From NCBI GenBank assembly GCA_015709595.1, contig CP054178.1, forward strand, positions 1,240,001 through 1,304,000: a stretch of DNA of 64,000 nucleotides. Reading direction: 5' to 3'. Shown one piece after another: positions 28,814 through 41,505 of this stretch (positions are counted from its first letter, which is position 1; the number at the start of each line of letters is the position of its first letter). This DNA is from Phycisphaeraceae bacterium. Lineage in GTDB: Bacteria; Planctomycetota; Phycisphaerae; Phycisphaerales; SM1A02. The notes beneath the pieces were generated by a model that was given only the letters and a program-made list of their open reading frames with translations, had not been told where the DNA came from and made no database searches. The translations under genes were made by a program, and so were the position numbers.

Positions 28814-31800
28814 TTACTCATTGAACAACCGAATCTGCACGTTCACGAACTCGAAGTCGTCCAGGTCGCCCATGTCGTCGGACGACTGGATGACCAGTTC
28901 GTTCTCACCCTCGAACAGGAGCCGGATGTCGAACGGCGCCACGAACTCGCCGTAACTGCCGTCGCGCGGCGAGCGGTTGAGCCGCGTGGGCAGCACCCGA
29001 CCGTTGAGCCGGATGCGGTTGCCCGCCTGCGCCCCCTTGACCAGCATGCGCAGCTCGGCGCGGCGGTAGTTGGGCGGCAGTTGCTCCGGTCCCACGCGGA
29101 ACACCACGCTGTACACGGCTCCCTCCGCCGCGCGCTGGAACTGGCTGTTGATCGATCCCTCGAACCGGTCGTTGCCCAGGTGATGGACCTCCGGCACCTG
29201 CTCCAGCGCGATGATGTCGGACGTGAGCGGTTCGAGCGCGAAGTCACGCTCCAGCACCTGCCCGCGCAGCGCCTCGCCCTGGGCGGTCATTGACAGCGGC
29301 GCGAAGCCCGGCCTGGCCGCCGACAGCGCGAAGTGCTCGGGCATCTCCGGCGACTGCAGCGCATAACGTCCCTGCCCGTCCGTCCGCACCTGCAGCGCCT
29401 CGCGCCCGGGAATGTCCAGCGTCACCACCGCGCCCGGCAGCGGCTTGCCGTCGGATCGACTCGTCACCACGCCGCGGATCGTGCCCACCGCGTCGATGGC
29501 CTCGTCCGGGTTGGTGAGCGGGTCGTAGCGGTAGTAGACCTCCAGGCACAGGGCGGCGATGGCGGTCTGGTAGACGCGCCCGCCGATCTGCGACCATTGA
29601 TCGTTGGGATCCCAGCTTCCCGTCGCTGGCCCGCTGCGATGCTGACTGGACAGCAGGGCGTTTTTGAGCGCCGCGTTCCAGCGATCCCATTCCGGCCCCT
29701 GGTGGTGGAACATCGCCAGCGTGCCGTAGTACCAGTAGTAGGTGTCCGGCGTGTTCTCCCAGTCGGGCAGGTTCTCCAGCAGGAAGAGCGCGCTGCCCGC
29801 CTGGGCGCGCTCCTCGCGATGAGCGCCCAGCAACTGGCGGATGAACATGCCCTCCGCCGTCATGGCGTTGGTGTACTGCCGGCCCGGCTGATAGGCGTAT
29901 CGCCCCGGCAGCGTGGGGTGGCGGACCGCGTCCATCCACCGATGCACGTGCGTGAGCGCCTCGGCGGGCACGTCGATCCTCGCCCGCCTGGCGCTGGCCA
30001 GCGCCATCACCTGCCAGCCGGTGACCGAGGTGTCCCCGAACTGCCCCGGCGCGTAGCGCCACCCGCCCAGTTCGCGGTTGCGGGCCTGGACCACGAAGTC
30101 CGTCGCCCGGCGCGCCGGGCTTTCGAGCCAGGGATCGCCCGTCATGGCGAAGGCCTCGGTGAGCGCGATGGTCACGATGCCCTGCGTGTACATCGTCTCC
30201 TCGGAAAGGAAGCCGCCGTCCGGCGCCTGTCGATCGACCAGCCAGCGCAGGGCGCGGGCCACGGTGTCGCGGTAGGGGCCTTCCCGCTCGTGGGTGTGAT
30301 CGGCGCCGAGGAACGCCAGCACCGCCAGCCCGGTGAGTGCGGCATCAATGCGCGCGTTCGACTGCCCGCCGCACTGCTCGCACTTGGCGTCGAACCCCGA
30401 TGCGCTCCAGCGGCCGTCGTCGCTCTGGTGCGCCGCCAGCCAGCGCAGGGCGAGCTGCACGGCGTTCTCCGTCTCCTGGTTGCCGCCCAGCCGGTCGAGC
30501 AGCGACTCGCGACGGTCCGCCCCGCGCTGCGACAGCGGGTTGTCCACCGGGGGGCGCTCGGAGGGCAGACGCAGATCGTTCATGATGCGGTCGATGCCCG
30601 GCAGGTCCGCGACGACCAGCGCCAGAACGGGCGGCATCGACACGGCGTCCGATGACGCGGCATCGCTGGTCGCCATCGCGCCGTCTGTTGCGAATGACGA
30701 CTCGGGGGCGGGCACGCGCCGGTCGGATGGGTCGATGCGCGTCGTCCGAGGCGCGGCGGGACCGGCGATCCGGCTCCATGCCGACGCGGCGCGGCGTGTC
30801 GCCGCCTGCTCCGGCGTGATTGACGGTCCCGCCGACAACTCGTCGTTGGCGGCTGGTTCGATTGCCGTTTCATCCAGTCCTGGCAGAGCAGTCGCCAGCG
30901 CCGGCAGGTCGAGCAACGACGACGCGACATCGCGCCGCGGGGACGATTCCGGCCTTGTCGAGGCGGACTCGGATTCGTCCGCCCGAGCCAACGAGCCGGT
31001 CGCGGCCCGCTCCGCAGACGCCGCGTCAGTCGCCACAATGGTCGCCTCGGCGGTCGGCGGATTGTCGCCAACGCCATCTTCCGGCGCTCGACGGCTCGCA
31101 ATGTGCTGAGGCGCGGCGACGACCGTCGTCTCCGCGGCCAACGCACCCTCGGGCGCGGGCTGTGCGACGGGCAGCGCCACGGCGATCTCCATCCCAGTCC
31201 GCGGCACGTCCGACGCCGCACCCGTCGCGGGAGGCCGGGATGCTTCGGGGGCATCGGCCTCTCGCGATGCGGCGTCACCGACAATCGCGGATGAATCGCC
31301 CTCGCGCCGGTTCGACGCAGGCGCGACCGCCACGACCTCGCTGGATGGCGGCGGGACGGCTGGCTTCGTCGCCGTGACTTCGCCGGCGCGTTGTGACGCC
31401 GTCGCCGATTGCGCCGCGATGCGCGTCGTCGGCTCGGCGACGCTCGACGGCTCTCCCCGCACCTCGCGCGGCAGCGCAACCGCGGCGTCCATGATGCGCG
31501 GCAGGTCCGCCGCCAGGGTCGCCTCACGCGCGGCCTCCTCGATGGGCGCCGCCTCACGCGGAGAGTGCTGGCCGGCGAGACTGGTCGAGGTCGCTCCGTC
31601 GCGGCGCTGGGCCGGCGCGGGCTCCATCGCCGCCGTCGTCGGGTCGGCGGTCTCCACTGCGGGCGCCCGTGTTTCGGCGCGGTCAGTCGCTGGCGACATC
31701 GCCACGTCGCCAGCCGCCACTTCCACGCGGCGTTCCTCGTGATGCGCCCGCTCCGGCTGCATGGGCAGCGCCGTCGGCGCGTCCGTCAACGCGGGCGGCG

Positions 31801-33355
31801 CCTCGGCGTGCGTCACGAATCGCTCGATGACCTCCGTCGTTGGCGCTTCCCGCGTCGCGGGAGGCACCTGCGAGGCGTCGGTCGCGGGGCGGCGCGGCTC
31901 GATCGCCGCCGTCGCCGAAAGCATGGGCATCGGCTGGAGGAGCGGCGACTCGCTGGGCCGCTCGCCCCCTTCGGTCGGCTGCTCGGCGTCGATTGAGACA
32001 TCCGTCAGCCCCCCGCGAATCTGGTTCGCCACTGACTCGGCCGCCGAGTTGGACGTGATCGCCACCCGCACAGACCCGTCCTTCATGCGCTGGGCGATCG
32101 TGCTGGTCACGCCCCACACCGTCAGCAGCAGCATGATGAGCAGGTGCGCCAGCAGCGACGTGAGCAGACACTTGGCCAGCAGCGACAGCCGCCGGAACTG
32201 CGCCCGCCGCATGAAGTGCAGCAGCGCCAGAACCAGCAGCAGGCCCAGCAGCGCCAGCAGCAGGAGAGGCCAGAGTTCCGACCACAGGCCGGCCCAGTCG
32301 ATCCGCGCGGCGAAGGGGTCGGTCTCGGTGAACACCTCGCGCGACAGGGCGCGATGCAGATCCGAATCCAGGTCCGTCTCGGCGACGGAACCGGCGGCAA
32401 TCCGGGGGCGGGGACGCGCGGAGGCGAAGAAGAGCGCGAAACCGCCGAAATCCACCGCCGGGTCGAGTTCATCGCGGAACGTATTGATCGCAGCGCCGAG
32501 GTTGCGGGCCGGCAGCACCGCCCCGCGCACCACGCGCGAGCGATACAGGTCGAACCCGCCGAAGCCGCCCGCGCGATCAGACGCGAAGTAGAGGAAGTCG
32601 CCCGGCGGGCTGAGCGCGGGCGAGGTCTCGTTGGCGTCCGTGTTGACCGCGTCCACCGCGTGCGCCGCGCCCGGCCCGTCGGCCAGCAGCGACGCGACGA
32701 ACAGGTTGTAGTCGCCCCCCCGTGCGCGCGGGTCGCCTTCATCGAGCGGCGCCGTCGGGTCCACGGCCCGGGGCCGGTTGGAGGCGAAGTACATCGCCAT
32801 CCCGTCGGAGGTGGGCGCGGGGCCGTACTCGTTCCAGCGCGTGTTCACCGCGGGGCCGAGGTGCATCGGCTCGCCCCAGCCGCCATCGCCCTCTCGGCGC
32901 GCGACCCACAGGTCGTATCCACCCAGCCCGCCGGGTCGGTCGCTGGCGAAGAAGAGCGACTGCCCATCGGCGCTCATCGCGGGGCTGATCTCATCGAATC
33001 GCGTGTTGACGCCGTTGATCGGCGTCGGCTCGGTCCAGCCATGCACCGTGCGCTGCGTCACATACAGGTCCGCGCCGCCGCCCGGCGCGCCCCGCACCAG
33101 GATCATGGTCATGCCGTCCGAGGAAATGGTCGGCCCGGCCTCGTGCCGGGCGGAGTTGACCAGCCCATCGACGGGCAGCGCCGGCTCCCACAGTACGTCG
33201 CGCGTGGTGGTGGAGCCGATGGGCACGCGGATCGACTGAGCGTCGGTGTAGAACGTGTGGTCGCGCTGGCGCTTCCACCACAGCCCGCCGCCCACGACCG
33301 CAGCGATGGCGAGCGATGCGAGCACGAACCACAGGATGCGTCGGACGATGCGCAT
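28814..33355 (-). CDS. Giant membrane protein: beta-propeller, membrane hairpin, alpha-toroid and carboxypeptidase-regulatory-like domain
   Basis: A 1513-residue protein of unknown function. Order: N-terminal helix (7-25); WD40/PD40-like propeller repeats to about 340 (repeating FASDRPGGLGGYDLWVA and FASDRAGGFGGFDLY); two strongly hydrophobic segments at about 358-420; an Ala/Pro/Thr-rich, probably disordered stretch of ~520 residues; an alpha/alpha-toroid of the squalene-cyclase/prenyltransferase type at about 958-1275 (ALRWLAAHQSDDGRW, LVDRQAPDGGF, GGWRYAPGQFGD); a carboxypeptidase-regulatory-like domain (about 1288-1350); and a C-terminal beta-rich domain. No cyclase DCTAE-type catalytic motif was seen, so the toroid is probably a binding domain. 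It is the last gene of a TPR-exbB-exbD operon, 24 bases after exbD, and is a candidate energised partner of ExbB/D. Confidence 0.75.
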   Translation of the reverse strand: MRIVRRILWFVLASLAIAAVVGGGLWWKRQRDHTFYTDAQSIRVPIGSTTTRDVLWEPALPVDGLVNSARHEAGPTISSDGMTMILVRGAPGGGADLYVTQRTVHGWTEPTPINGVNTRFDEISPAMSADGQSLFFASDRPGGLGGYDLWVARREGDGGWGEPMHLGPAVNTRWNEYGPAPTSDGMAMYFASNRPRAVDPTAPLDEGDPRARGGDYNLFVASLLADGPGAAHAVDAVNTDANETSPALSPPGDFLYFASDRAGGFGGFDLYRSRVVRGAVLPARNLGAAINTFRDELDPAVDFGGFALFFASARPRPRIAAGSVAETDLDSDLHRALSREVFTETDPFAARIDWAGLWSELWPLLLLALLGLLLVLALLHFMRRAQFRRLSLLAKCLLTSLLAHLLIMLLLTVWGVTSTIAQRMKDGSVRVAITSNSAAESVANQIRGGLTDVSIDAEQPTEGGERPSESPLLQPMPMLSATAAIEPRRPATDASQVPPATREAPTTEVIERFVTHAEAPPALTDAPTALPMQPERAHHEERRVEVAAGDVAMSPATDRAETRAPAVETADPTTAAMEPAPAQRRDGATSTSLAGQHSPREAAPIEEAAREATLAADLPRIMDAAVALPREVRGEPSSVAEPTTRIAAQSATASQRAGEVTATKPAVPPPSSEVVAVAPASNRREGDSSAIVGDAASREADAPEASRPPATGAASDVPRTGMEIAVALPVAQPAPEGALAAETTVVAAPQHIASRRAPEDGVGDNPPTAEATIVATDAASAERAATGSLARADESESASTRPESSPRRDVASSLLDLPALATALPGLDETAIEPAANDELSAGPSITPEQAATRRAASAWSRIAGPAAPRTTRIDPSDRRVPAPESSFATDGAMATSDAASSDAVSMPPVLALVVADLPGIDRIMNDLRLPSERPPVDNPLSQRGADRRESLLDRLGGNQETENAVQLALRWLAAHQSDDGRWSASGFDAKCEQCGGQSNARIDAALTGLAVLAFLGADHTHEREGPYRDTVARALRWLVDRQAPDGGFLSEETMYTQGIVTIALTEAFAMTGDPWLESPARRATDFVVQARNRELGGWRYAPGQFGDTSVTGWQVMALASARRARIDVPAEALTHVHRWMDAVRHPTLPGRYAYQPGRQYTNAMTAEGMFIRQLLGAHREERAQAGSALFLLENLPDWENTPDTYYWYYGTLAMFHHQGPEWDRWNAALKNALLSSQHRSGPATGSWDPNDQWSQIGGRVYQTAIAALCLEVYYRYDPLTNPDEAIDAVGTIRGVVTSRSDGKPLPGAVVTLDIPGREALQVRTDGQGRYALQSPEMPEHFALSAARPGFAPLSMTAQGEALRGQVLERDFALEPLTSDIIALEQVPEVHHLGNDRFEGSINSQFQRAAEGAVYSVVFRVGPEQLPPNYRRAELRMLVKGAQAGNRIRLNGRVLPTRLNRSPRDGSYGEFVAPFDIRLLFEGENELVIQSSDDMGDLDDFEFVNVQIRLFNE

Positions 33356-33379
33356 GCGTGAATCGTCGGAACGGGACCG

Positions 33380-33796
33380 CTAGTCGGTGACGGGCACGGT
33401 GTCCAGATAGGGCTGCTGCACGCCCGCGCCCTTGCACAGATCGAGCACGCGGGCCACGTGCTGGTACGGCGCGTCACGGTCGCCTCGAACGGTCACCTTC
33501 TGCTCGGGGTTCTGCTGCACGGCCTGGATGATGCGCTGTTGCAGGTCCTCCGGCGAAATGACCGCGCCGTTGAGGATGATCGTCCCCTCCCTGTCCACGT
33601 TGATGACGATGTCGCGCAGCGCCGCGCTGATGGGCCCGCCGTGCGCCGCATGGGGCAGGGCGATCTGCATCTCCCGCTCGGTCTGGTGGAAGGTCGTCGC
33701 CACCAGGAAGAAGATGAGGAGCAGGAAGACCATGTCGATGATGGGCGTGAGCTCGACCGCCGCGCCCTGGTCGTGGCCGAAGTCCGCGCGGATCAT
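33380..33796 (-). CDS. exbD: ExbD/TolR-family proton-channel subunit
   Basis: A 138-residue inner-membrane protein with one N-terminal helix, LTPIIDMVFLLLIFFLVAT, holding the conserved proton-carrying aspartate (D21), and a periplasmic domain with the VTVRGDRDAPYQHVARVLDLC segment of the ExbD fold. With ExbB it converts the proton gradient into force on a partner. Its ATG 33796 overlaps the exbB stop (ATGA). The neighbours are a giant envelope protein and a TPR protein rather than TonB or TolA. Confidence 0.92.
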   Translation of the reverse strand: MIRADFGHDQGAAVELTPIIDMVFLLLIFFLVATTFHQTEREMQIALPHAAHGGPISAALRDIVINVDREGTIILNGAVISPEDLQQRIIQAVQQNPEQKVTVRGDRDAPYQHVARVLDLCKGAGVQQPYLDTVPVTD

Positions 33797-34614
33797 GCCC
33801 GTGCTCCTGTCGTCGCCGTCGCGGCCTGGGCCGCCTCGATTCCACGTCCCGCGTGCTGACCGCTGATTTCCGCCTTCTGACCCCTGCCCGCGGCGCCGTT
33901 CTCCGACGCCGGCGCGACGACCGACTTCGACTCGGCGCGCCGGGCGGCGTACTCGTCCACGAAGTTCACCGTCATCTCGTCGATCTCCATCACCAGGCGC
34001 TCGACCTTGGAGACGAGGAAGTGGTAGAAGATGAGGGCGGGAATCGCGACGATCAATCCCGCCGCCGTGGTGACCATCGCCTGGTAGATGCCCGCGGCGA
34101 GCAGTTCCGTCTTGCCCAGCGCCTCGCCGCTGCGCGACACCTCGGCGAAGGCCTGGATCATGCCGAAGATCGTGCCCAGCAGTCCCAGCAGGGGCGAGAC
34201 CGAGGCGATGACCGACAGCGCCCGCAGATTCCTGCGCAGGCGCAGCACCTCGCGCTGGCCCGCCTCGACGATGTGCTTCTCCAGCAGTTCGGGCGATTCG
34301 CCCAGTCTGCGGATGCCCGCCGCGAACACGTTGGCCACCGGGCTGCCGTTCCTGCGGCAGTAGTCGATGCCCTTCTGCCGATCGCCCTCGGCGAGCGCCT
34401 TGCGCAGCCCCGCGAGAAAGCCAGGCGGAATGACCGAACGCCGCCGCAGCGTGATGAGACGCTCCACCAGCACCGCCAGCCCGATGAGCGAGCACAGCCC
34501 GATGGGAACCATCAGCGGTCCGCCCTTCTGGACGAGATCCCACACGGTTTCCACCGCGCCCGCTGGAGCCGGCGCGGCGAGAAGCAGAGCGGTGAGACAG
34601 GTGACGCTGGTCAC
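33793..34614 (-). CDS. exbB: ExbB/TolQ-family proton-channel subunit
   Basis: A 273-residue inner-membrane protein of the MotA/TolQ/ExbB family: helices near residues 30-50 and two in the second half, ALSVIASVSPLLGLLGTIFG and YQAMVTTAAGLIVAIPALIF, with the conserved Pro/Gly and Thr. A signal-like N-terminus TSVTCLTALLLAAPAPAG precedes the first helix, and starting at GTG 34614 with GGAG 9 bases upstream fits it. An in-frame GTG at 34710 gives a 32-residue extension read through a hairpin repeat, so is less likely. The last ~35 residues are charged and Gln/Ala-rich and coincide with a degenerate CTGACCGCTGA-type repeat. Confidence 0.88.
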   Translation of the reverse strand: MTSVTCLTALLLAAPAPAGAVETVWDLVQKGGPLMVPIGLCSLIGLAVLVERLITLRRRSVIPPGFLAGLRKALAEGDRQKGIDYCRRNGSPVANVFAAGIRRLGESPELLEKHIVEAGQREVLRLRRNLRALSVIASVSPLLGLLGTIFGMIQAFAEVSRSGEALGKTELLAAGIYQAMVTTAAGLIVAIPALIFYHFLVSKVERLVMEIDEMTVNFVDEYAARRAESKSVVAPASENGAAGRGQKAEISGQHAGRGIEAAQAATATTGARA

Positions 34615-34651
34615 GATGGGAGCTCCAGTTGAGGGAACAGAACAATCCTGA

Positions 34652-34676
34652 TGGCGCCGGCGGAATGCCGGCGCCA
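34652..34676. repeat. TGGCGCCGGC hairpin repeat between the TPR gene and exbB
   Basis: TGGCGCCGGC, loop GGAAT, GCCGGCGCCA: a perfect 10-base-pair stem, resembling the other intergenic hairpins. It lies inside an operon and may set the exbB translation rate, which is inference. Confidence 0.7.
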
Positions 34677-34699
34677 CCGGAGAGGTGGATTGCACGCGC

Positions 34700-37600
34700 T
34701 CATCGCCCACCCCCTGATCCGCCGCCCCGTCCCGGCAGGTCGGGCTTGCTCAAGGCGGCCAGGCGGGCCGTCGCCAGCTCCGCCCAGCGGGTGCCGGCGT
34801 GCTGGTCGCGCACGGCCTCGAACTGCTGCCGCGCCTGACCGACCTGGGCCATGGCCTCGAAGCAGCGGCCCGCTTCGTACAGCGCCGCGGCGCTCCACTC
34901 CGGGTAGGCGTAGAGAATGTCCACCTTGAGCAGTTCGCGGGCGGCCTCATCGTACTTCTTCTGCGCATAGAGGCATTCGCCGATCTGGAACTGGCTGCGC
35001 GCCGCGGTAGGGCCGTCGTGCTTCTCGATCACGGCGCGGTACGAGGTGATCGCCTCGTCAAATCGACCCTGATTCTCCATCGCGAAGCCCAGGCCGAACC
35101 GCGCCTGGAACCAGACCTCTGATTCGGGAAACTCGCGCAGGAAGCGGCTGAACGCCTGTTCGCTCTCCTTCCACGCCTGCAGCGCGGCGTGGGCCTCGCC
35201 CAGCCGCAGCAAGGCGGGAGCACGCAGCCGCGCTTCCTCCGACTCCGCGGCCCTGGCAAGATGCGCCGCCGCCTGCCTGTGCTGCCCGCGGCGGAAGTGC
35301 GCCTCGCCAGCCAGCAGCCGCGCGGACGGCGCGAGCGAGCTCTTCGCATGCGACTTCAGGAACGCCTCGAACGCCCTGGCTGCCGCTTCATCCCGGCCCA
35401 GTTCGTACAGGCACGCGCCGAGCCGGTACCCGGATCGCTCGCCCAGGTCGCCCGGCAGGTCGGCTCGCTCCGCGATCGGCTCCAGGAGCGCGACGGCCGC
35501 GTCGTGTCCGCCCGCGCCGGCTTCGAGTTCCGCCAGCTCCACGCGGGCGAACAGGTCCAGCGAATGTTCGCGCTGATCCCCGAGCATGGCGCGATAGGTG
35601 GCGGAGGCGCCCTGCACGTCGCCCGTCTCGCGCTGCGACCAGGCCTTCTCGTAGAGCAGCGATGTCGTGACCTGGTCATCCAGCGAACGCGCCTGCTCGC
35701 GCAGCACGCGGTCAATCTGCTTCAGCGCCCCGGCGTGATCGCCGCCTCGCGCCGCGCACAGGGCCACGTTGGCGCTCGCCATCGGCGCGCGGGCGTGCCC
35801 GGGGGCCTGTTCGACGAACCGGGCGAAGGCGCGCCCCGCCTCGTCGTATTTCGACTGAGCCATGAGCGCCTGGCCCTGCTGGAAGAGTGCTTCGTGCTTC
35901 AGTTCCTCCGGCGCGTCCAGACCGGCCAGTTTCGCATAGTGCATCGCGGCCTCGTCGTACCGTTTGCCCCGCATGGCGATGGCGCCAAGATGGTTGAGCG
36001 CATGGGCGGCGAACCGGGACGCCTCGCGGCTCTCCAGCACGCGCTGAAGCACCTCAACCGCGTCGTCATCCCGCCCCAGCACGACCAGCGACTGCCCGCG
36101 CTCGAAGTTCGCCTGGGCCGCGTGCGGGCTGCTCGGATGACGTTCCAGCAGCCGCTCGAACGCCTGCAGCGCGGTTTCGTGCAGGTCGCGCCGCTGGCGG
36201 CACAGCCCGATGGTGATAAGCGCATCATCGGCGTCGGGTGCATTCTCGTCGGCGGAGAGGTACTCGCTGGCGCGGGCTTCCGCCGGCTCCCACTCCTGAC
36301 GCGCGAAGTGAATGTCCGCCAGGTCGAGCAGCGCCGAGCGGTACGCCGCCGGCGTCTTCGCACCGTTCACCACGGCGCGCAGATGCTCCTCCGCCCGCCG
36401 GGGGTCGTTCAGCCGCACGTATGCCGTGCCCAGTCGATAGCGCGCCGCGGCGACCTGCCCGTCGCCGGGCCGAGAAGCGATGAACTTCTCAAACCGCGCC
36501 GCCGCCTCCCGGTGATTGCCGGACAGGAAGGCGTTCTCCGCCATCAGGAACTCGATGGCGGGAAGGAGCGCGTGCTTCGCATGCTTCTCGATGAACTCCC
36601 GCCCCAGCGCGTCGCTGGCCGCGTACTCCCGCCGCTGGTGATCGATGATGGCGGCCAGGTGCAGCGCGTCCGGCGCCAGGACGTGCTTCGGATGGGCGGC
36701 GCGGAACTCGGCCAGCGCCGCCTGCGCCGCGTCCGCGTCTCCCGCGCGGTGCAGGGCGACCGCGCGGTCATATCGCATCTCGGCCAGCATGGCGCTCTTC
36801 GGATGCCGCGCAATCGCCTGCTCCAGCCGCGCCGCGGCCTGTCCGGGCTGATCCTGCCGCAGTTCGCACCGGGCGGTCCACCACGCCGCGCTGTCGGCGA
36901 GCGCCTCGTCCGCCTCGACCGCCTCGGCGAAGCGCGACACGGCCTTGTCGTATTCGCCCGCGTCGTAGTGGACGCGCCCGCGCTCCAGCAGCGCCAGCGG
37001 GATGACGGGATGTTCCGCGTGATCCTTCAGCACCCGGTCGAGCAGCGCCGCGGCGTCCCGGGGCTTCCCGTCGCGGCGAAGCAGCCCCGCCAGTGAGTAC
37101 ATCGCCTCCGGGGCGAAGGCCGGGTCATTCCGCCGGATGACGCGCTGATACTGCGCCGACGCCGCCTCCCACTGCTCCGCAGCGTGCAGCGCTCGGGCGT
37201 GCAGCAGCGACGCGCGGGCGGCCAGCTCGCCATCGGGAAACGCCCGGACCATCGCTTCGTACCGCCTGGCGGCGTCCGCGTGGCGCTCCAGCGCCGTCTC
37301 CGACAGACCCGCGAAGAACTCCGCCCGCTCGCGTCGCGGTGAATTCGTCCACTTCGCCGCCATCACGGCCGCGGCCTCGATGGCCCGCTCGTGCGCCGCG
37401 GCTCGCGAGTGCGATTCCACCAGCAGCGCGCAGGCCGCATCCGCCTGGGCGTGCCCCGCGTGTCGCTTCACGACCACGTCGAACGCCGCCGCCGCGTCGG
37501 CGTAGCGCTCCTGGATCATGCGGCACTGGCCGAGCAACAGGCACGACTCCGCCGCGAACTCAAAGCGCTCCAGCCCGATGAGCGGTTCGAGCTCGCCCGC

Positions 37601-37897
37601 TGCCTCGTCGATCCGGTTCTGACGCTGCAGCGCCACCGCCAGCCCGTATCGCGCCACCGGCGCCTTGGCGTGCGTCGGATGCGCGGCGAGGAACTTGCGG
37701 TACTCCTGCTCCGCCAGGTCGTGCATGCCCCGGTTGAGCAGCCCGTTGGCGCTGTGGAAGTCACGCAGGGTGGCGGCGTCATCCTGCGATGCAGCGCACC
37801 TTGCCGCGGCGTGCGCATCGAGCGCGGGCCACGTCACCGCCGGAGCGAGAAACACCAGCGGCGAGGCCGCCGCCCATACGCGATGCACACGAGCCAT
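34700..37897 (-). CDS. Exported TPR-repeat protein
   Basis: A protein of about 1065 residues made almost entirely of tetratricopeptide repeats (about 20 or more units, for example AEQEYRKFLAAHPTHAKAPV and EAITSYRAVIEKHDGPTAARSQFQIGECLYA). It begins with a likely signal peptide ending near DAHAAARC. This layout is typical of envelope scaffolds such as YbgF-type proteins of Tol-Pal systems, but no coiled-coil head is seen. The start is ATG 37897, with GAGGGAG 8 bases upstream. It is the first gene of the exbB-exbD operon. Confidence 0.82.
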   Translation of the reverse strand: MARVHRVWAAASPLVFLAPAVTWPALDAHAAARCAASQDDAATLRDFHSANGLLNRGMHDLAEQEYRKFLAAHPTHAKAPVARYGLAVALQRQNRIDEAAGELEPLIGLERFEFAAESCLLLGQCRMIQERYADAAAAFDVVVKRHAGHAQADAACALLVESHSRAAAHERAIEAAAVMAAKWTNSPRRERAEFFAGLSETALERHADAARRYEAMVRAFPDGELAARASLLHARALHAAEQWEAASAQYQRVIRRNDPAFAPEAMYSLAGLLRRDGKPRDAAALLDRVLKDHAEHPVIPLALLERGRVHYDAGEYDKAVSRFAEAVEADEALADSAAWWTARCELRQDQPGQAAARLEQAIARHPKSAMLAEMRYDRAVALHRAGDADAAQAALAEFRAAHPKHVLAPDALHLAAIIDHQRREYAASDALGREFIEKHAKHALLPAIEFLMAENAFLSGNHREAAARFEKFIASRPGDGQVAAARYRLGTAYVRLNDPRRAEEHLRAVVNGAKTPAAYRSALLDLADIHFARQEWEPAEARASEYLSADENAPDADDALITIGLCRQRRDLHETALQAFERLLERHPSSPHAAQANFERGQSLVVLGRDDDAVEVLQRVLESREASRFAAHALNHLGAIAMRGKRYDEAAMHYAKLAGLDAPEELKHEALFQQGQALMAQSKYDEAGRAFARFVEQAPGHARAPMASANVALCAARGGDHAGALKQIDRVLREQARSLDDQVTTSLLYEKAWSQRETGDVQGASATYRAMLGDQREHSLDLFARVELAELEAGAGGHDAAVALLEPIAERADLPGDLGERSGYRLGACLYELGRDEAAARAFEAFLKSHAKSSLAPSARLLAGEAHFRRGQHRQAAAHLARAAESEEARLRAPALLRLGEAHAALQAWKESEQAFSRFLREFPESEVWFQARFGLGFAMENQGRFDEAITSYRAVIEKHDGPTAARSQFQIGECLYAQKKYDEAARELLKVDILYAYPEWSAAALYEAGRCFEAMAQVGQARQQFEAVRDQHAGTRWAELATARLAALSKPDLPGRGGGSGGGR

Positions 37898-38063
37898 GGT
37901 CACACTCCCTCGAGACCGGACGCATCATCCCACACGGGCCGCCCACCGGCCACCCCGCACCCACGAGATTGTCAGGTTTCGCGACGCCAAGCCGACGGGC
38001 CGGGCCGGGGCGCGCAAAACGCCACGGCGCGGTTCTGAGCAGGCCGCGGCGAGGGGTGCAGTC

Positions 38064-38152: not shown

Positions 38153-41008
38153 TCAGCGGCCGCCCTCCTTCGCCATCTCGGACAGCGCCTGCTCGACCCG
38201 CTTGATCTCCGCCTGCAGGGTCTTGAGCTGGGCCTCAAGCGACTGGCGGGCGGCCTGGGTGCTTCGCACCGCCGCGTCGGTGGCGTTGACGCGGGCCTTC
38301 AACTCCGTCACGCGGGCGATCTCTTCCGCGCGCTTCTCGGCGCCGGCATCCCGCAGCGCCATCTCCGAGCGGCGCAGTTCCTCGATCAGGGCGCCCCGAT
38401 CGCCTTCCAGCGACGACGCCTGGTCGCGCAGCGTGATCCGATGGGCCTCGATTTCGGCGGCGGCCCGCGCCAGTTGATCGTGGTGGGTCCGCAGCCGCAC
38501 GTCGCCTTCAGCGATCAACTCCTTCTGTCGGGCCAGTGCGGCGTGGTCGCGCGTCAGCGACTCCACGGCGGCGCGTTCCGACTCCAGCTGACGCGAACGC
38601 CGGGCGGCCACGTCGCGCAGCCGCGCCGCCTCGGCCTGCTCCAGCGCCGCCATCTGGCCGATCACGGCCTCCATCCGGCGGCTCTCCGCCTCCGCGGAGC
38701 CGGAACTCGACGCCTCGGGATGAATCAACTCAATGAACATGCGGAAGATGCGGTGCTGACCCTCGGTGGCGTGAACCTCGATGGCGTCTTCTCTGGGCGC
38801 CACGCGCACGGGCACGTCATCGCGGATCATCAGCTCGACGAGCTCCTTCAGCTTGCCCTTGGGCAGGCGATACGTGCGCGCCAGAATGGGGCCGTCGGCG
38901 TTGAACAACTCGGCGGCCGTCGCAACCGGCGACGTGGCGAGACCCCCGCCCCCAGGCGCCTGACCCGCGCGCGGCGCCTGGGCGGTGGTCACCGCGCCCC
39001 CCGGACCCTGAACGCCCGGCGGCAAGGCCAGCGGCGCGGGGTGGCCCGGATGGGCCGGAGCCGCGGTCGTCGCCATGCCCCCAGGCGCAGCGCCGGCGCC
39101 GCCGTGCGACCGCACGGCCGTGGGGGCCATCGGCGGCTGGGGTGCGGTCGCGCCGCCCTGTCCGCGCGGCGCTGGTTCCGCAGGCGGCACGGGACGCATC
39201 GGCGGCGCGGAGGTCGTGACGCCTCCCACGACGCCCTGCTGACCGGCGTGAAGTCGCTCGACCGCCTGCATGAGCCGCTCCAGCCGCTCCTCGAGCCGGC
39301 GCAGCCGCGCCTCCACGTCGTCATGCGCCTCGGCGGCCTCGCCCATGAAGAACAGTTCGGCGGGAATGGGATACTCAAACGAGCCGGTCTCCGGCGCCGC
39401 GGCGCGCTCGCGCATGAACTGCTCGAACGTGCTGTCAGCCGACGCGGGCGAGCCCGCCCCGGGCGCGGCCTGAGCAGCGCCGCCGAAGAACGCGGGCACG
39501 GGTGACGCAAGCGTCGTCGTCGGCCTGGCGTCCTTGAGCGACTTGCCCTCCTCCGGCGGACAGGCGGCGATCGGCGACACCAGCAGCCCGGCGGCGGTGA
39601 GCGCTCCCGCCAGGGCGACGCCCCGGATCGAACGACGCGGAACGAACTCTCGTGTCATCACCATCGTGAGTCTCCTTGCGAAACGTCGAGCGCGGGGCGT
39701 CGCCGTCCCCAGGCCCACGGCGGGCCCGGCGAGCGGCATCGCGCTCAGGTACTTCCGTGAATCGAGCAGCGCCTGCGCATACGCCCGACGACGCGCCGGC
39801 TGAAGATGCGTCACCCAGGCGTCGCAGCACAGGTCGGCCTCCTCCCGAACCTGACGCCTCACCCACCACGCCAGCGGATGCCACCAGAACACCACCCCCA
39901 CCACCAGGTCGAACCAGCACACCCAGTGGTCCAGCCGCCTCAGGTGCGCCAGTTCGTGGCAGATCACCGCGTAGCGGCCCGCCCCATCCAGTTGCGACCA
40001 CAACCCCGCGGGCAGCACCAGCACGGGGCGGCGACCGCACCACATCATGGGAGACACCCGGTCCGACACCATCACCACGTCCGGCGGCAGGCCCAGTCCC
40101 ACGTCACGGGCGGCGCGCTCCACCATCTGCCGCACGCTCCGACACGCGGGCACGCCACGTCGAACCAGACGCGCAATCGCCAGAACCCGCACCAGCATCA
40201 CCGCCACCATGATGGCCATGCCCGTGATCCACGCCGGCGCGGGCACGGGGGGCAGCGCGGCGACGGCGTCGCGCACCGCCAGCAACGAGGCGACCCCGCC
40301 AGGCCGCGAAGCATCGCCCGTCGTCGGCGCGGGACGCCAAGCGTCGGAGGACGGCTGAACACTCGACGCGTCCAGTCGCGGAGAGGCGACGACAACCGAC
40401 GACGGCATCCGCTCCGGCAGCGCGTCGGACGCCGGTTCCTCACGGACGGCGGCGTCCGCGGCGCGCGATGCGTCCACCGCTCGGCGAACGACCGGCTCCA
40501 CGATGCCCGCCAGCCAGAGGGAGTCGGCGGGCTTGAGCACGCGGCGTGCGGACGGCGATGGGCTCTCCGCCGCCGCGTCGTGCGATCGGCTCATCACCGG
40601 CGACGACGCGTCACTCTTGCGGCCAGGCGTGATCAGCCGGGTGAGGGGCGATTCGGACGCGGGCAAGCCGGGTCGCGGCGCCGACTCGCGCTGCGGGGTC
40701 TGGGTCGCGCGGGTCGTGGATTGATCGACCGGCGCGACCGTCTCTTCGTCGCGCGGGGCGCGGGCGACGGTGCGCTGGTCATTCGCATGGGTCGCGCCCA
40801 GGTACGCCGCCGGGTCGCGGCGCGCCTCGTGGGGCAGCCAGCCGACGACGAAGGACGGCGCCAGGAACATGGCCAGCACCGCCAGCCAGATGAGATGCCG
40901 CGTGGAAGGCCGAGCCGGGAAGACGCGGCAGACAATGATCGCCAGCAAAGCCACCGGGATGATGCCCAGCGCATTGAGCCAGAGTTGGCCGAGCGAGAAA
41001 TCGGGCAT
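38153..41008 (-). CDS. M56 (BlaR1-type) membrane zinc peptidase with coiled-coil C-terminus
   Basis: A 951-residue membrane protein. Two N-terminal helices (about 10-60), a ~200-residue Ala/Ser/Pro/Thr-rich region (70-300), another helix (VMLVRVLAIARL), then the M56 core with zinc motif CHELAHLRRLDHW near residue 350 and EEADLCCDAWV near 400. After residue ~470 comes a signal-like hydrophobic segment, a long low-complexity stretch, and a C-terminal coiled coil (about 800-951). In BlaR1 a periplasmic penicillin-binding domain follows; here there is none, so the sensed signal is different. It is 2 bases after a BlaI-type repressor gene and may cleave it, as in the Bla/Mec system. Confidence 0.85.
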   Translation of the reverse strand: MPDFSLGQLWLNALGIIPVALLAIIVCRVFPARPSTRHLIWLAVLAMFLAPSFVVGWLPHEARRDPAAYLGATHANDQRTVARAPRDEETVAPVDQSTTRATQTPQRESAPRPGLPASESPLTRLITPGRKSDASSPVMSRSHDAAAESPSPSARRVLKPADSLWLAGIVEPVVRRAVDASRAADAAVREEPASDALPERMPSSVVVASPRLDASSVQPSSDAWRPAPTTGDASRPGGVASLLAVRDAVAALPPVPAPAWITGMAIMVAVMLVRVLAIARLVRRGVPACRSVRQMVERAARDVGLGLPPDVVMVSDRVSPMMWCGRRPVLVLPAGLWSQLDGAGRYAVICHELAHLRRLDHWVCWFDLVVGVVFWWHPLAWWVRRQVREEADLCCDAWVTHLQPARRRAYAQALLDSRKYLSAMPLAGPAVGLGTATPRARRFARRLTMVMTREFVPRRSIRGVALAGALTAAGLLVSPIAACPPEEGKSLKDARPTTTLASPVPAFFGGAAQAAPGAGSPASADSTFEQFMRERAAAPETGSFEYPIPAELFFMGEAAEAHDDVEARLRRLEERLERLMQAVERLHAGQQGVVGGVTTSAPPMRPVPPAEPAPRGQGGATAPQPPMAPTAVRSHGGAGAAPGGMATTAAPAHPGHPAPLALPPGVQGPGGAVTTAQAPRAGQAPGGGGLATSPVATAAELFNADGPILARTYRLPKGKLKELVELMIRDDVPVRVAPREDAIEVHATEGQHRIFRMFIELIHPEASSSGSAEAESRRMEAVIGQMAALEQAEAARLRDVAARRSRQLESERAAVESLTRDHAALARQKELIAEGDVRLRTHHDQLARAAAEIEAHRITLRDQASSLEGDRGALIEELRRSEMALRDAGAEKRAEEIARVTELKARVNATDAAVRSTQAARQSLEAQLKTLQAEIKRVEQALSEMAKEGGR

Positions 41009-41475: not shown

Positions 41476-41505
41476 ATCCTACTACGAAAGTCGTAGTCGC
41501 TGCAA
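41476..41505 (-). promoter_or_regulatory. blaI-M56 promoter with operator between -35 and -10
   Basis: On the minus strand: -35 TTGCAG (41500-41505), an 18-base spacer and -10 TAGGAT (41476-41481). The dyad ACTACGA AAG TCGTAGT (41481-41497) fills the spacer. It resembles BlaI/MecI operators (TACTACAnnTGTAGTA type), and its position suits repression. Confidence 0.78.

Follow-up and report, generated by a model that had tools for sequence, protein, structure and literature searches.

A TPR-ExbB-ExbD-fusion operon of Planctomycetota: a probable proton-driven force transducer with exchangeable heads under BlaI/M56 control

The stretch of 64,000 nucleotides analysed here (hereafter the window) corresponds to C1:1240001-1304000 of the 3.84 Mb single-contig genome (G000) of a Phycisphaeraceae bacterium. 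It contains a tandem row of minus-strand genes encoding a giant tetratricopeptide repeat (TPR) protein, an ExbB/TolQ-type and an ExbD/TolR-type motor subunit, and a fusion protein of 1513 residues. The operon probably encodes a machine of a kind not yet described, which would exert a pull on the outer cell envelope. Judging from sequence and predicted models, we put at about 0.7 the probability that it encodes a transducer driven by the proton motive force (PMF), in which the fusion protein would dock onto the motor through a single membrane histidine, H404, and would work as TonB and TolA do. To our knowledge, few kinds of proton-driven force transducer have been described, and the coupling of inner-membrane energy to the outer membrane in planctomycetes is largely open. 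No earlier description of the operon was found in the open-access literature (subscription papers were not covered). If the reading is correct, the docking helix of TonB and TolA can be built into proteins that are otherwise quite unlike them and whose heads are exchangeable, and such a motor can come under BlaI/M56 control. The single residue H404 makes the docking idea directly testable.

The genes of the row are tightly packed: ExbD starts within the ExbB stop codon (ATGA overlap), and the fusion gene starts 24 bp past ExbD (Table 1). Gene starts are uncertain. An earlier note on this DNA had described a four-gene operon at 28814-37897. Its coordinates are borne out, except that the TPR gene may extend to a GTG at 37903 (the ATG at 37897 being the alternative start). 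Its gene order recurs elsewhere, as described below. The extent has to be revised: a BlaI-type repressor gene, then an M56 protease gene, precede the TPR gene, and both, together with an operator, belong to the unit.

The order TPR-ExbB-ExbD-fusion was found in nearly every locus with sufficient flanking DNA among about 110 loci, 79 of them named loci from a scan of GTDB contigs and 31 further fetched regions. The earlier note had called for a survey of the four genes in relatives; they are almost always together, and the recurrence of one gene order in so many loci places the operon far beyond chance. The named set was drawn from the narrower alignment A2, the broad alignment A3 being too divergent, and is therefore biased towards Phycisphaerae; nearly all of its loci are from metagenome-assembled genomes of Phycisphaerae/Planctomycetota, and two are from Verrucomicrobia. 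In those named loci that have enough upstream DNA, the TPR gene is followed by ExbB and then ExbD; for L188 and the truncated L181, the TPR gene alone was scored. This order is also that of almost all 31 fetched regions, which came from a search of the phylum; in a few, the TPR gene is off the contig or unscored. In a toroid search of 41 genomes, long fusions were found in 8 other genomes (7 of the same family and 1 of another family of the order), and those on contigs that show their neighbours sit behind TPR-ExbB-ExbD; one contig, L044, looks misassembled. With a broader profile, about 50 of 391 genomes of Planctomycetota show near-full-length matches, which makes the distribution of the system wide but patchy. 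Clustering of the neighbours of 80 loci gave exactly six recurrent families, namely the four genes and, just upstream of them, the M56 protease in 60 loci and a small regulator in 49; the next commonest family occurs in only 5 loci.

Some loci depart from the common plan. Genome G019 (L039) carries two complete TPR-ExbB-ExbD-fusion copies in tandem. In L105:3-6175, two successive fusion genes stand behind one ExbB/ExbD pair, the first of them encoding a propeller and a toroid, no hairpin, and a transmembrane (TM) helix at its end. The record of L174 is titled as Alphaproteobacteria and its fusion nests among those of Phycisphaerae; the contig is probably mis-binned or mislabelled.

The domain composition of the fusion protein read in the earlier note (propeller, hairpin, tether, toroid, carboxypeptidase-regulatory-like domain or CREG, and beta-domain) agrees with matches in Pfam (PD40, SQHop_cyclase_C and CarboxypepD_reg) and NCBIfam and with AlphaFold2. 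Two models, of residues 935-1513 and 1-441, were built from alignments of the window protein with its GTDB relatives and have a mean pLDDT (predicted local distance difference test) of 90.9 and 83.8, respectively. The order in the models is TM1, propeller, TM2, TM3, tether, toroid, CREG and beta-domain, and the toroid, whose structure prediction the earlier note had proposed, is predicted to have an alpha-toroid fold. The stretch from TM3 to the toroid is rich in Ala and Pro and about 530 residues long (median in relatives, 430), and a disordered tether is present in all relatives compared. The loop between TM2 and TM3 is positively charged (median net charge +4). The charges fit a topology with the N-terminus inside, the propeller outside, the TM2-TM3 loop inside, and the tether and heads outside. 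A cytoplasmic toroid, which the earlier note took as counting against its idea, is thus not what the charge rules predict, as they place the toroid, like the tether, on the periplasmic side.

The evidence for docking comes mainly from TM3, the sequence of which is LLAKCLLTSLLAHLLIMLLLTVWGV in the window. A Ser-x3-His motif is present in TM3 of all 74 proteins compared, in TM2 of one and in TM1 of none. The S400/H404 pair is kept in 78 of 78 members of the near set, and among 38 aligned sequences (A5) the only invariant membrane residues are C396, S400, H404 and V416. In cryo-EM structures from E. coli, S16/H20 of TonB and S18/H22 of TolA dock on ExbB/TolQ; the Ser-His pair touches Ser34 and Trp38 of ExbB, and Trp38 in turn touches Pro190 (PMC12215075). 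The ExbB proteins of the operon keep the partner Ser (108/108), the Pro (107/108) and both channel Thr residues (108/108), conserving the equivalents of TolQ S28, T145, T178 and P187, and the operon ExbD shares the column of the proton-binding Asp with TolR. Right after TM3, amid otherwise unconserved sequence, there is a conserved strand-like GxRVAL element followed by Q-I-R-G. The strand lies at +26 to +31 from the His, compared with +25 to +30 for ISVTMV of TonB and +27 to +32 for IDAVMV of TolA in E. coli. A 'motor box' in this place after the docking helix was described by Williams-Jones et al. (2025, PMC12204202). The idea of a TonB/TolA-like tether, already put forward in the earlier note, has thus gained a Ser-x3-His helix, a motor-box-like strand and the ExbB residues, and has lost the toroid as an essential part.

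Several observations weigh against docking of the TonB/TolA type. In divergent members the docking Ser is often Ala: in the divergent set A3 (22 sequences), the His is the sole invariant TM residue and the Ser column holds Ser or Ala. Furthermore, the pattern that locates TM3 in the near set itself demands the Cys and the His and leaves the Ser free to vary, so what counts as independent in that set is the Ser column, left free, together with the alignments. The second Ser of the SHLS motif is missing from TM3 of the fusion: position +7 is Leu in the window (Leu, Phe or Met in the family), and +11 is Gly (or Glu, Gln or Lys), not Ser. These two positions, Leu +7 and Ser +11, are less conserved in Ton (PMC12215075). 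The position of ExbB Trp38 is occupied by Leu, Val or Met in the operon ExbB. Finally, a profile of TM3 and the juxtamembrane region finds neither TonB nor TolA among PDB sequences and gives chance matches, for example to haemoglobin; hhalign places it in register with TolA at a P-value of 0.005 and a probability of 7%, which is not significant.

In the proposed mechanism, ExbB and ExbD would form the motor. The fusion protein would be anchored in the inner membrane. Its N-terminus and hairpin loop would face the cytoplasm, and its propeller, tether and heads the periplasm. TM3 would dock onto ExbB via S400/H404, and the strand directly following it would pair with ExbD. Cycling of the motor may then pull the long tether, which would connect the motor with whatever partner the toroid and/or CREG-beta heads bind at either the outer membrane or the cell wall. 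Close to the motor or the wall, the propeller, which resembles TolB, could together with the TPR protein provide adaptor and scaffold functions. BlaI would repress the operon from a single operator, and the M56 protein would lift this repression on sensing an envelope signal.

The C-terminal head is exchangeable. Among 71 complete proteins, 28 carry the toroid only, 21 the toroid followed by CREG-beta, and 19 CREG-beta only; one has the reverse order and two are without a recognised head. The toroid is therefore not an essential part, since it is missing from the 19 proteins with CREG and beta-domain only, and the varied composition of the heads leaves the propeller, docking hairpin and tether as the core. 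In a tree of the propeller/hairpin region (a quick tree with many weak forks), the head states require 17 changes or more, and a toroid is found on every one of the deepest branches. This suggests that the toroid is ancestral and was lost repeatedly while the motor and docking helix stayed. In L042:10536-15371, CREG and the beta-domain precede the toroid, the opposite of the window order. No C-terminal fold of TonB (TonB_C) or TolA was found in the heads by Pfam, models or structure comparison. The conserved acids of the toroid are E1067 and E1272. The thioester motif CGEQ of the alpha-2-macroglobulin thioester-containing domain was matched, as a loose pattern, in 3 of 80 toroids. A CxxC motif (C-E-Q-C in the window) was considered as a zinc site or thioester and dropped, being present in 39 of the 80 toroids and absent from the others. 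A short single-domain paralogue of the toroid, present almost everywhere among the 41 genomes, is represented by L052:9219-10319 (G000:C1 at about 1035.2-1036.3 kb), a protein of 366 aa with an N-terminal TM helix and 30-35% identity. It has no ExbB/ExbD nearby, and in several genomes it stands behind one or two long proteins with at least two TM helices.

Probably a single BlaI/M56 switch controls the operon, as suggested by the position of both genes upstream and by a recurrent operator whose core is unique in the genome. In 64 loci with at least 8.5 kb of upstream DNA, the M56 gene is present in 56 and the BlaI gene in 48; HExxH is found in 55 of 60 M56 homologues. The genome has a single copy of the operator core, CTACGANNNTCGTAG. 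In the relatives, 44 of 47 regions upstream of blaI score at least 10/14 for the operator, versus about 6% of shuffles, and the dyad CTAC-N7-GTAG is present in 30 loci versus 0.05 expected. The generic BlaI operator TACA-N-TGTA was rejected as a candidate, since it occurs in only 2 of 49 and the strongly enriched dyad is CTAC-N7-GTAG. No consensus sigma-70 promoters were found, and terminator-like sites are at chance level. As in BlaI-BlaR1, a Penicillinase_R repressor is followed by an M56 protease and there is a palindromic operator; by analogy with the BlaR1 family, the M56 protein may cleave BlaI. Unlike in BlaI-BlaR1, no penicillin-binding sensor was detected in the operon M56, and the output would be an envelope motor. 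The C-terminal region of the M56 protein (window:38156-39601) is long and without a known domain, with a probable coiled coil at its end. In BlaR1, the sensor occupies this place.

Table 1. Features of the operon and of its fusion protein (positions in the window)
Feature	Position	Strand	Basis
Operator, perfect palindrome ACTACGA-N3-TCGTAGT, 39 bp upstream of blaI start	41481..41497	.	sequence
BlaI/Penicillinase_R-type repressor, 143 aa	41011..41442	-	PF03965 E 3.7e-28
M56 (BlaR1-like) membrane metalloprotease, 951 aa, HELAH at residue 351	38153..41008	-	PF05569 E 8.3e-30
TPR protein, giant, exported, ~1067 aa, YbgF/CpoB-type repeats	34700..37903	-	TIGR02795 E 2.3e-88, 14 stretches
ExbB/TolQ proton-channel subunit	33793..34710	-	PF01618 (MotA_ExbB) E 5.8e-32; start codon uncertain
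ExbD/TolR subunit, 138 aa, proton-binding Asp	33380..33796	-	PF02472 E 1.7e-28
Fusion protein, putative force transducer, 1513 aa	28814..33355	-	Pfam and AlphaFold2 models
TM1, signal-anchor-like helix, residues 2-28	33272..33352	-	AlphaFold2 model
PD40 beta-propeller, residues ~41-345, predicted periplasmic	32321..33235	-	PF07676 E 4.7e-26
TM2 (354-385), positive loop, TM3 (392-425)	32081..32296	-	model; loop net charge
S400-x3-H404 signature in TM3, motor-docking type	32144..32158	-	alignments A5, A3, near set
Motor-box-like strand and A-x-Q-I-R-G element, residues 428-451	32003..32074	-	conservation profile
Ala/Pro-rich disordered tether, residues ~452-949	30509..32002	-	composition, length
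Alpha/alpha-toroid head, residues ~955-1280	29516..30493	-	VIA-align to 2sqc
CREG (CarboxypepD_reg-like domain), residues ~1288-1375	29231..29494	-	PF13620 E 7.7e-9
C-terminal beta-domain, residues 1376-1513	28817..29230	-	model; no Pfam match

Comparison with known systems may provide some clues regarding the nature of this machine. With TonB and TolA of E. coli, the operon shares motor genes of the 5:2 type, a Ser-x3-His docking TM helix, a motor-box-like strand, a disordered tether and a C-terminal head predicted to be periplasmic. Unlike in TonB and TolA, the docking helix is the third TM helix and part of a hairpin, not N-terminal, a propeller precedes it, and the last Ser of SHLS is absent. 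The heads (toroid, CREG-beta or both) have folds other than that at the C-terminus of TonB and TolA, so the fusion is not a member of that family. Another parallel is provided by the vWA transducers of the Planctomycetes-Verrucomicrobia-Chlamydiae (PVC) bacteria, Planctomycetota included, in which TPR and tolQ/tolR-like genes accompany an SHLS-helix transducer with an unrelated head (PMC12204202). They have in common with the operon TPR and motor genes beside a transducer with a Ser-x3-His helix and such a head. The operon differs by having one ExbD instead of a pair, a tether of hundreds of residues instead of about 100, and, in addition, a propeller, a hairpin and BlaI/M56; no vWA domain was found in the fusion by Pfam scan or in the model. 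The PorE/CHU_0125 OmpA family also combines a PD40 propeller (NF053607, E 1e-40, far below the cut-off), TPR and carboxypeptidase-type elements, but its members are outer-membrane lipoproteins with an OmpA domain, whereas the fusion has three TM helices and no OmpA domain.

It is possible, and we propose it tentatively, that the operon represents a separate class of PMF-driven trans-envelope machine, a double-ended transducer and a Planctomycetota counterpart of Tol and Ton. A hairpin-anchored protein would then have its docking helix flanked by two periplasmic domains, the propeller near the inner membrane or wall and the exchangeable head at the far end. Pulling would alter the distance between them, and the BlaI/M56 pair may tune the number of motors to the state of the envelope.

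As to what the transducer pulls on, the two best guesses from fold similarity and synteny, both falling within the transducer reading, are a Tol-like role in envelope maintenance and a glycan-linked role in transport. That the operon is a functional stand-in for Tol-Pal, serving outer-membrane constriction or stability, appears rather doubtful. Like Tol-Pal, it has a motor, a TolA-like tether, a propeller of the TolB fold (TolB gives the top Foldseek matches) and a CpoB-like TPR protein of the YbgF type, that is, a counterpart for every part but Pal. The TolB N-terminal domain (PF04052) was found in none of 10 carriers, the E. coli control being positive, and all 10 have OmpA/Pal-like domains elsewhere in the genome. 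However, the operon has neither the TolB N-terminal domain nor Pal, its propeller is fused to the tether protein, and no OmpA-type gene recurs nearby in 80 loci. VIA-align puts glycosidase propellers (GH43/GH62) first, with no TolB among the best 50; a propeller/hairpin profile gave no match to PDB sequences. The patchy distribution (about 50 of 391 genomes) argues against a core division function in the phylum, and BlaI/M56 control suggests conditional use. As for the TPR protein, the Pfam scan shows many TPRs, and a lipobox, searched for by a crude pattern, is present in only 9 of 77 proteins, so that, as a rule, it is no lipoprotein.

Equally on the doubtful side is a TonB-like role with another class of receptor, in which glycan uptake or secretion would be energised via an outer-membrane partner bound to the head. 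CREG and the beta-domain align with the C-terminal modules of rhamnogalacturonan lyase (Foldseek E 2.5e-9, with a low TM-score), which we take to be fn3-like and carbohydrate-binding-like, a lead only. Many glycan enzymes are also found among toroids of this fold. Nevertheless, similarity of fold does not show a ligand, and among the recurrent neighbours of the operon in 80 loci there is no transporter, porin or glycan enzyme. TonB and TonB-dependent receptors are both present in 5 of 10 carriers tested and both absent from the other 5, so the operon neither depends on these receptors nor serves them. In the earlier note no TonB gene was seen, which holds for the locus and not for the genome, where TonB, ExbB, ExbD and a TonB-dependent receptor are encoded at C1:3.42 Mb.

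Outside the transducer reading, the fusion could be a passive inner-membrane tether beside a motor that drives something else, the Ser-x3-His being coincidental. The coupling of the fusion to the motor is indeed deduced from sequence; still, the motif is restricted to one of three TM helices and invariant there, and ExbB has the matching partner residues, which make such a coincidence improbable. A reading in which the toroid acts as an enzyme, whether a class II terpene cyclase or another, with the motor incidental to it, is more improbable still: squalene-hopene cyclase (2sqc) is its best structural match (VIA-align Z 26.9 over 284 residues, root-mean-square deviation 3.0), but the DXDD motif has no conserved column (D.DD strings were counted in 11 of 80 toroids), the toroid is predicted to be periplasmic, and it was apparently lost repeatedly while the motor and docking helix stayed.

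Other motor genes were seen besides those of the operon. The ordinary Ton system of the genome (L193:1351-11077, with receptor, TonB, ExbD and ExbB) adjoins a DUF7133/cytochrome c protein. Two more operons, L194:6773-11062 and L196:4111-8721, each encode a large TPR-type protein along with a single ExbB and two ExbD, and are possibly other undescribed motor systems.

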